From positions 1 to 64,000 of the forward strand of contig CAIVZZ010000003.1 in NCBI GenBank assembly GCA_903910555.1: a stretch of 64,000 nt of DNA, in the 5' to 3' direction. A program made the position numbers and the translations under genes. Below, one piece after another: positions 30,419 to 62,333 of this stretch; position 1 is the first letter of the stretch, and the number at the start of each line of letters is the position of its first letter. Below the pieces are notes generated by a model, which saw nothing but the letters and a program-made list of their open reading frames with translations, did no database searches and had not been told where the DNA came from. This DNA comes from an uncultured Gemmatimonadota bacterium (lineage in GTDB: Bacteria > Gemmatimonadota > Gemmatimonadetes > Gemmatimonadales > Gemmatimonadaceae).

Positions 30419-34996
<4,578 letters not shown>

Positions 34997-35000
34997 ACAC

Positions 35001-39325
<4,325 letters not shown>

Positions 39326-39326
<1 letters not shown>

Positions 39327-39355
39327 CTGAAAGCTGCTGTACTGAAAGCTGCTGT
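39326..39355 (+). repeat. Perfect 15-bp tandem repeat at the rpoC stop
   Basis: ACTGAAAGCTGCTGT occurs twice in direct succession, the first copy starting on the last base of the rpoC TAA. Looks like a slippage duplication. Confidence 0.85.
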
Positions 39356-39371
39356 TATGAGTTTTCGGTTA

Positions 39372-39533
39372 TGACAACAAAAGGTGTGCGTTAACGGTCG
39401 TTGGTTGGCCGGGTACTGAACTAACTGCGACGGGACAGGTCGGTGCGGTGAAGGAACCGCAAACGACCTGTCCCGTCGTCGTTAGTTCATTAATTCGTTA
39501 CCAACGACTGTTAACGCACACCTTTTGTTGTCA
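39372..39533. repeat. 162-bp imperfect palindrome downstream of rpoC (MITE-like)
   Basis: The ends are 24-bp perfect inverted repeats (TGACAACAAAAGGTGTGCGT-TAAC). Inside these, GTCGTTGGT, TGAACTAAC and CGACGGGACAGGTCG are also repeated in inverse order on the other arm. At the centre TGCGGT-GAAGGA-ACCGCA forms a small hairpin. No coding capacity. The terminal CCTTTTGTTGTCA is repeated once more at 39556-39568. No target-site duplication is evident. It could be a miniature inverted-repeat element or a very large terminator. Confidence 0.8.
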
Positions 39534-39622
39534 CACCTCACGACCGTCTACACGTCCTTTTGTTGTCAGTACCGGCAGCCGGTAACTCGCTTTTACTCGT
39601 GTCTGTCCTCACATTCCAGAGG

Positions 39623-40945
39623 ATGACCGAGCCCACCCGCGTAATCCCGAGAAAGGCCGTATTGAGCTGGATGCTCTACGATCTAGCCAACGTGATCTTC
39701 TCGATGGGCGTCATCTCGAGCTACTTCTCGTTTTTCGTCCACGATGAAGTAGGCGCCGCGAGAGCCGATTCCATGCTCGGCCGCATCAGCGCCATCTCGA
39801 TGGGCATCATGTTCCTCGGCTCGCCGCTCCTGGGCGCGATGACCGACCGCGCTCGCAAACGCATGCCCTTTTTGATCTGGGCTACGCTGATCTGCTGCGC
39901 GTGTACCGCGCTGATCGCCCGCGGTCCGTTCATGGTGAGCGCGCTGCTGTTCATCGTCGCGAACGGCGGCTATCAGGCCGGCGTGCAGTTCTACGATTCG
40001 CTGCTGCCCGAGGTGACGACCGAAGAGAATCGCGGCCGTATCAATGGAACTGCGGTTGGCCTCGGCTACATGGGCTCTTACATCGCGGTGGGTGTCGGTC
40101 TCTTGATGACGGTGAAGGGGCAGCCGTTTCCGTATACGACGTATTTCTTGTTCATTGCCGCCGCATTCATGCTGCTCGCGCTCCCGTGCTTTCTCTTTGT
40201 GGGAGAGCAGGGGAACCCCAATCCGCGTCCGATTTTCACCTGGGGCGCTGTGACGGAATCGCTGAAGCAGACCGTGCATACGCTGAAATCCGGAAACAAA
40301 TATCCGGGGCTGCTGAGATTTCTGCTGGGTCGCGCGTTTTATACCGACGCGATCAATACCGTCATTCTGTTCATGTCGATCTACACGGTGAACGTCGCGG
40401 TGTCGACGGGGCTCACCGAGCAGGACGGTAAACAGAAGGCACAGCTCGTTCTGCTCTCGGCCATCACCGCGGCGATTTTCGGCGGCATCATCTGGGGTGT
40501 TGTCGTCGATAAGCTCGGACCGAAGAAGACGCTGACGATCGTACTTTCCGGCTGGATCTGCACATTCATCCTCGCGTCGTTCGTTGGATTTCTCCATCTG
40601 CACATCGGCTGGCTTTTCGTGGTCGCCTGTTCGGCGGGAATTTGCCTTGGCGGAACGTGGGCGTCGGATAGACCGCTGATGCTCCGGCTCACGCCGCCGG
40701 ATCGCGTCGGTGAGTTCTACGGACTCTACGGAATGGTCGGCCGCTTTTCGGCGGTGACCGGCCCGTTGCTCTGGGGATTCACCACCTGGCTGACCGTGGA
40801 GCAGGGCCATATGCCCGAGGTCAAAGGTGAGGCGTTCGCGATTCTCTCGCTGTTGGGGATGATGCTGGTCGCGTTCGCGATTCTGAGGAGCGTCTCCGAC
40901 GAGCCGCGCGACTGGAAGGCGCTCGGCGCGATCGCGCAGAGCTGA
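39623..40945 (+). CDS. Major facilitator transporter, UMF1 family
   Basis: About 440 residues from the ATG at 39623 (MTEPTRVIPRKAVLSWMLYD); the track begins at a TTG inside the repeat element. Eleven to twelve hydrophobic helices. SWMLYDLANVIFSMGVISSY and the loop GAMTDRARKRMPFLIW match the UMF1/Atg22-like MFS group, and EVTTEENRGRINGTAVGLGY the central motif. Members are proposed to export amino acids or similar small molecules. The acyltransferase gene follows after two bases, hinting at co-transcription. Substrate unknown. Confidence 0.88.
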   Translation: MTEPTRVIPRKAVLSWMLYDLANVIFSMGVISSYFSFFVHDEVGAARADSMLGRISAISMGIMFLGSPLLGAMTDRARKRMPFLIWATLICCACTALIARGPFMVSALLFIVANGGYQAGVQFYDSLLPEVTTEENRGRINGTAVGLGYMGSYIAVGVGLLMTVKGQPFPYTTYFLFIAAAFMLLALPCFLFVGEQGNPNPRPIFTWGAVTESLKQTVHTLKSGNKYPGLLRFLLGRAFYTDAINTVILFMSIYTVNVAVSTGLTEQDGKQKAQLVLLSAITAAIFGGIIWGVVVDKLGPKKTLTIVLSGWICTFILASFVGFLHLHIGWLFVVACSAGICLGGTWASDRPLMLRLTPPDRVGEFYGLYGMVGRFSAVTGPLLWGFTTWLTVEQGHMPEVKGEAFAILSLLGMMLVAFAILRSVSDEPRDWKALGAIAQS

Positions 40946-51043: not shown

Positions 51044-51154
51044 GAGTCTGAGGTCTAAGTCCTTTGTCTAACGTCTGAAAACCCGCAGTACGCAGTTCGC
51101 AGCTGTGAACCGACAACAGCGGGTTTTCAGACGCTAGACTGGAGACCTAGACTC
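51044..51154. repeat. 111-bp palindromic element between the hydrolase-like gene and fusA
   Basis: CGTCTGAAAACCCGC at 51072-51086 is a perfect inverse of GCGGGTTTTCAGACG at 51119-51133. The arms extend outward imperfectly (GAGTCTGAGGTCTAAGTC against the inverse of GGAGACCTAGACTC). At the centre GTTCGCAGCTGTGAAC is a further hairpin. Not followed by a T run. AACCGACAACAG inside it resembles the TTAACCGACCAACAG motif of the dispersed element. Confidence 0.75.
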
Positions 51155-51177
51155 AAGAAAACAGCGCTTCCTGCCGG

Positions 51178-62231: not shown

Positions 62232-62258
62232 TGAAGGGAAGGGCGTAGGAAATGTTTC

Positions 62259-62318
62259 TTGTTGGCTGGTTAAGAAAGGTTAGTGGTTAAAACCAGTAAC
62301 GAATTAACCAACCAACAA
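62259..62318. repeat. 60-bp palindrome between rpsN and rpsH
   Basis: Outer arms TTGTTGGCTGGTTAA and TTAACCAACCAACAA pair at 14 of 15 positions. Inner arms GTTAGTGGTT and AACCAGTAAC pair at 9 of 10 around AA. GTAACGAATTAA inside it also occurs, inverted, in the 39372-39533 palindrome. Confidence 0.8.
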
Positions 62319-62333
62319 AAAAACAGAAACTCG
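62304..62333 (+). repeat. Copy 3 of the dispersed 30-nt core
   Basis: TTAACCAACCAACAAAAAAA followed by CAGAAACTCG. It agrees with copy 1 at 23 of 30 ungapped positions, and more with a one-base gap. It is also the right arm of the 60-bp palindrome and lies 73 nt before rpsH. Confidence 0.6.

Follow-up and report, generated by a model that had tools for sequence, protein, structure and literature searches.

Palindrome behind the rpoC gene

What is the long palindrome located directly behind the rpoC gene of this uncultured Gemmatimonadota bacterium: the end of a transcript, retained for its function, or a copy of something that moves? In the window (the whole analysed stretch of DNA, 64,000 nt), the 162-bp palindrome occupies positions 39372–39533 and starts 45 bases past the rpoC stop codon. 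The range 39327–39568, in which it was noticed by a sequence-only reading, is wider than the palindrome and also spans two 15-bp direct repeats and a stray third copy of its tip. The features of the locus are listed in Table 1.

Table 1. Features of the rpoC locus and the second S23-type hairpin of the window
Feature	Position	Strand	Evidence or remark
rpoC, upstream host gene	34941–39326	+	TIGR02386, 1734 bits (cut-off 963.5)
Two 15-bp direct repeats ACTGAAAGCTGCTGT, between rpoC stop and palindrome	39326–39355	+	Missing in other copies
Left outer arm, perfect 24-bp tip TGACAACAAAAGGTGTGCGTTAAC	39372–39405	+	Kept in 17 copies of three genomes
Left inner arm, core GCGACGGGACAGGTCG, best-conserved portion	39414–39442	+	Arm pairing, copy alignment
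Apical loop, sequence and length vary among copies	39443–39463	+	Copy comparison
Right inner arm	39464–39492	+	Arm pairing
Right outer arm	39500–39533	+	Arm pairing
Additional 13-nt copy of the right tip CCTTTTGTTGTCA	39556–39568	+	22 bases past palindrome
Downstream MFS-type transporter gene (Atg22-like)	39623–40945	+	PF11700, 97 bits; PF07690, 91 bits
Gene-less S23-hairpin copy, family B, second in window	51045–51158	.	84% identity over 116 bp to family B arm

The outer arms are 34 nt each, with a level of complementarity of 97% and perfect 24-bp tips; the inner arms are 29 nt each, with a level of complementarity of 90%, and enclose a loop of 21 nt. The palindrome is real and well beyond chance expectation: its fold as single-stranded DNA has an energy of −86.9 kcal/mol vs. 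−38.8 ± 3.9 kcal/mol in shuffled sequences (z = −12.4), and none of 200 shuffles gave an equally stable fold. No coding capacity was found inside it. The near-perfect palindrome with perfect terminal repeats, the lack of coding capacity, and the third tip copy 22 bases beyond, all claimed by the sequence-only reading, were borne out. The stray tip is likely a remnant or a partial duplication, and the 15-bp direct repeats lie outside the element to which the palindrome belongs, referred to below as family A. As for the identity of the palindrome in Rfam, only microRNA-precursor matches were obtained; all of them are under the gathering scores and are generic hairpin matches.

It had also been claimed that the palindrome shares a sequence with another one at 62259. 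The shared 12-mer GTAACGAATTAA is present at 39490–39501 on the minus strand and at 62296–62307 on the plus strand; however, a link between the two hairpins was rejected, as the arms of the 62259 hairpin match neither family A nor any fetched S23 element. The region 62250–62330 of the window is a third hairpin with a separate arm family and without an S23-bearing partner among the loci fetched. In its outer arm, it shares 20 of 20 bases with the hairpin located behind rpoC in the relative G002.

Copies of family A and S23 genes in the same genome

The genome has a size of 3.2 Mb, in 32 contigs, with a completeness rating of 100%. Further family A matches were found in it at C2, C17 (two matches), C13, C8, C31, and C15, and a remote relative was found on C6. 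There are at least eight main family A copies, seven of which, including the rpoC copy, are gene-less, while the C15 copy has an S23 gene; these copy numbers, obtained from fetched stretches and searches, are lower bounds. The palindrome copies are sited between protein genes. The arms of the C15 copy are separated by about 400 bp containing an ORF of the four-helix-bundle S23 family. The apical loop of the rpoC palindrome corresponds in position to the place of the S23 gene in the C15 copy and in the copies of two relatives, G010 and G012. Six S23 proteins of the genome, the C15 protein included, match PF05635 (“23S rRNA-intervening sequence protein”) and TIGR02436, and the solved structures related to S23 proteins are 2gsc (XCC0516) and 2rld. 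Longer copies with family A ends carry the S23 gene alone, and no transposase gene was found in them. The S23-bearing full form could not be seen by the sequence-only reading, since it lies outside the window.

The C6 palindrome (L028, 4951–5131) is long; the GCGACGGGAC core is all that it has in common with family A, its outer arms being composed of different GAGCTGA-type heptads. Judging by this mosaic, an exchange of arms or cores between families is suggested.

There are 11 TIGR02436 genes in the genome, and inverted arms were found around all 11, their sequence being different from gene to gene; the control genomes yielded no S23 match. The arms are mostly 42–118 bp in length; the weakest case is L032, with a 17-bp arm only. 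At most of these loci, roughly 100–215 nt separate the end of the left arm from the matched part of the gene, which is soon followed by the right arm. A search of the genome with the arms of the other ten S23 elements revealed dispersed gene-less loci for two of them: about 20 for family B and about 10 for family C, which are lower bounds, since 40 of 193 candidates were scored. The S23 element from which the family B arms were taken is located at C5:83566–84257. An alignment of 14 family B sequences outlined a discrete element of ~117 bp with unrelated flanks; no clear target-site duplication was found in these 14 copies. Family B copies are also found between divergent genes.

The family B hairpin of the window has GTCT-based heptad arms. 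In the family B S23 element (L033, 1286–1977), each arm is a whole palindrome by itself; thus, the S23 gene is placed between two gene-less copies, resembling a composite transposon.

Distribution and evolution of the copies in related genomes

The rpoC-type palindrome was found in three of the 61 genomes searched, namely in the genome under study and in the public MAG fen_1231 (G012) and Chersky.15_25 (G010), both of Gemmatimonadota. In all three, a single copy with matching arms bears the S23 gene, and several others are gene-less. The three S23 orthologues have a level of identity of 79–82% to the protein of the genome under study and dN/dS values of 0.08–0.09; therefore, the protein is under purifying selection.

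When comparing the sites with those of G002, the closest relative by rpoC, spacers of 9–23 bp can be noted at the C17b, C31, and C6 sites vs. ~190–210 bp in the genome under study. Some relatives also lack the S23 elements at g033 and g039. Empty sites are thus present in relatives, but their flanks are too diverged, and no exact junctions or target-site duplications could be read from these comparisons. In most relatives, rpoC is followed by a compact GC-rich hairpin, in G010 and G012 by diverged family A palindromes, and in G002 by a different palindrome; at the C2 and C15 sites of G002, other hairpins are found in the same place. Apparently, some sites are therefore refilled by different hairpin families.

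At the C13 site (L023, 5009–5167), the spacer of G010 (L238) is 120 bp long and contains GTCGTTG-type heptads in a run on one side only; this is perhaps half an element.

In the tree of 17 gene-less copies, the seven copies of the genome under study form one group (none of 500 label shuffles gave a value as low; the support, 73/73, is modest). The relatives occupy the same rpoC and C31 sites, yet the copies of this genome cluster by genome and not by site, which fits either a recent spread within the genome or homogenisation. In 15 of the 48 predicted pairs, there is at least one change on both sides with the pairing kept. These compensatory changes could originate either from selection on the hairpin or from template-switch correction.

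The sequence-only reading had taken the palindrome for a possible miniature inverted-repeat element or an oversized terminator and had proposed checking the former by a genome-wide search for copies and for empty sites in relatives; a single copy with no structural conservation in relatives would have counted against it. Several dispersed copies, element-free sites in relatives, and a matching gene-bearing copy were found instead. The mobile-element part of that interpretation stands, while the partner appears to be an S23 protein and not a known transposase.

S23 loci in distant phyla

A scan of species genomes covered 80 S23 loci of Gemmatimonadota, Chloroflexota, Bacteroidota, Poribacteria, Planctomycetota, Verrucomicrobiota, Acidobacteriota, and other phyla. 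Ungapped inverted arms with a score of at least 15 were detected at 39 of them, whereas such arms appeared at none of 400 shuffled flanks, at none of 400 random window positions, and at other positions of the same loci in 1 of 438 cases. Gapped inverted arms exceeded the 99.9% shuffle level at 57 of the 80 loci. The other 23 lack inverted flanks above this level; this can be explained either by an association that is not universal or by decay of the arms. In relatives from the same order, such arms were found at 20 of the 28 loci with a reported pair. The same architecture is thus found across many phyla.

The flanks of S23 genes (up to 170 bp) show a sharp 7-bp periodicity: the identity at lag 7 is 0.354 vs. 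~0.26 at most other lags. This periodicity is absent 400–900 bp away and inside the S23 gene. Within the arms, the lag-7 identity reaches 0.61, and the heptamer sequences vary from element to element. None of 91 S23 loci has an rRNA match, a result that should be read bearing in mind that rRNA operons are often lost from MAG assemblies.

In a Bacteroidetes MAG, a SAM_alpha riboswitch match (L121, 1333–1410; 44.1 bits, gathering score 36) is located shortly ahead of the S23 gene.

Origin of the palindrome and alternative explanations

The palindrome behind rpoC is probably non-autonomous: a copy, without the gene, of a mobile hairpin element that carries an S23 gene in its full form. The full element consists of the left arm, a leader of roughly 75–140 nt, the ORF of the S23/23S_rRNA_IVP four-helix-bundle protein, and the right arm. 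In the genome under study, no matches to RVT_1 (reverse transcriptase) or Y1_Tnp (PF01797) were found; since these two families, the only ones searched, are unmatched, a REP-type transposase or an encoded reverse transcriptase is unlikely to be the mover here. As no other protein is consistently associated with the hairpins, S23 is the leading candidate for their partner. We infer its role in the spread of hairpins: the S23 protein may recognise hairpins of its own arm family when these are folded, either as RNA or as single-stranded DNA, and help to copy the cognate hairpin into new sites in trans, by analogy with RAYT proteins, which are thought to act likewise for REPINs. The gene-less copies would then be parasites of the S23 protein. 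As for the rpoC copy, it would have replaced a compact terminator-like hairpin present in relatives, and its transcript would fold into a long hairpin that could set the 3′ end of the mRNA or be cut by RNase III. A terminator role of this copy is plausible: the convergent genes around five of the seven sister copies and the swap for the compact hairpin suggest that it is either tolerated at a transcript end or used as one, although no U-tract follows its stem.

A broader proposal, which we put forward tentatively, is that S23/IVP proteins may define bacteria-wide transposable hairpin elements having neither a classical transposase nor a reverse transcriptase. An S23 oligomer would recognise the heptad-patterned arms and spread copies with and without the gene. 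The intervening sequences of 23S rRNA would be those few copies that had inserted into rRNA, and remains of such elements would make up a large part of the unexplained intergenic excess of heptamer repeats.

It is unlikely that the palindrome is an oversized (bidirectional) transcription terminator, retained at gene ends for its function and not mobile. Convergent genes flank five of the seven family A copies, all seven lie 3′ of at least one gene, the rpoC copy stands in place of the compact GC-rich hairpin of most relatives, and the arm pairing is kept through change. However, most relatives have no copies, the sites can be empty, family B copies occur between divergent genes too, and the S23 gene within matching arms is left unexplained. 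The combination of a GC-rich stem and an immediate U-tract characteristic of an intrinsic terminator was not found at the rpoC palindrome, as a U-tract directly behind the stem is absent; the sole match resembling a terminator, at 39570–39584, is a weak hairpin of 6 pairs, which is not above shuffles. An ordinary MITE that is mobilised in trans by some conventional transposase encoded elsewhere in the genome, S23 being cargo only, is a quite unlikely explanation. The rpoC-type palindrome is short, multi-copy, non-coding, and bounded by terminal inverted repeats, as MITEs are; its size, intergenic sites, and copy number also match known bacterial MITEs (PMC2229807), and the search for a mover in the genome covered RVT_1 and Y1_Tnp only. 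On the other hand, the sole longer copy found with these ends bears S23 and nothing else, Y1_Tnp is unmatched, whole-length palindromy and 7-bp periodicity are atypical of MITEs, and the identical arrangement of S23 genes in unrelated arm families is hard to expect of chance cargo.

The hairpins might also be made and kept by replication itself, through slippage at heptamers and switching of the template from one arm to the other, S23 being passively carried along. The arms are indeed 7-bp periodic, the over-representation of heptamer repeats in bacteria has been attributed to polymerase slippage (cited in PMC4692102), and template switching would likewise yield paired changes in both arms. 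This explanation is nevertheless improbable: it leaves unexplained both the copies with 80–90% identity at unrelated sites and the pairing of gene-less copies with an S23-bearing copy in three of three cases. Movement by reverse transcription of the folded RNA, in which S23 would play the part of Avd, its distant homologue from diversity-generating retroelements, is highly improbable. Two of the six S23 proteins match the Avd model weakly (best E-value 0.0027), and a published structural comparison ties PF05635 (2GSC) to Avd (PMC10053308); however, besides being unmatched in the genome under study, RVT_1 has matches in no more than 4 of 41 relatives, none of them among those with 10–12 S23 genes.

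Significance

S23 proteins have been known for decades, mainly from odd insertions in 23S rRNA; to our knowledge, no function has been assigned to them. Among open-licence papers, none was found that describes S23 genes located in hairpins outside rRNA. If S23 genes reside mainly in mobile hairpins outside rRNA, these proteins are given both a context and an activity that can be tested. One origin for a class of heptamer repeats and large intergenic palindromes would then be at hand, and a second system of a hairpin plus a partner protein, derived from an unrelated protein, would stand beside REPIN–RAYT. The one-to-one pairing of arm family and S23 gene lends itself to simple deletion and binding tests.

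Comparison with known systems

S23 proteins resemble Avd of diversity-generating retroelements in their distant homology and similar fold (PMC10053308), also reflected in the weak Avd-model matches; unlike in Avd systems, a reverse transcriptase (RVT_1) was not found in the genome under study. Bacterial MITEs, such as ERIC, Correia/NEMIS, and RUP (PMC2229807), are likewise shorter than 200 bp, have terminal inverted repeats, are intergenic, and give transcripts able to form long stem-loops. In contrast to them, the element described here is palindromic over nearly its whole length, and its gene-bearing partner encodes S23 and not an IS transposase. A MITE has ends in common with a transposase-bearing element, whereas the gene-bearing copies with these ends have S23.

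In REPIN–RAYT systems, every family of gene-less palindromes is tied to one protein gene, which is present in a single copy and has the same palindrome on its flanks (PMC3116915). The hairpins studied here share with them the tie of gene-less palindromes to one gene, the compensatory changes, and the extragenic sites. The differences are that the protein is S23 and not a Y1 tyrosine transposase, that the gene is inside the hairpin loop, and that the hairpins are longer. In its population structure, the element is like REPIN–RAYT; however, since the defining Y1 transposase was searched for (PF01797) and not found, it is not a member of REPIN–RAYT.

The intervening sequence (IVS) of Coxiella burnetii 23S rRNA is 428 nt in length and has an S23p ORF in the loop, terminal inverted repeats, and a 28-bp stem (PMC4990558). 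The elements described here have a PF05635 protein, an ORF between terminal inverted repeats (11 of 11 in the genome under study), and a similar size. Unlike the IVS, they are located outside rRNA (0 of 91 loci with an rRNA match) and are many per genome; their arms differ, are often 7-bp periodic, and have dispersed gene-less derivatives. The rpoC copy differs from the IVS in that the S23 gene is lost, the PF05635/TIGR02436 ORF being present in C15 and ten other loci. Architecturally, the S23 hairpin elements and the intervening sequences of 23S rRNA with an S23 ORF are of one kind.
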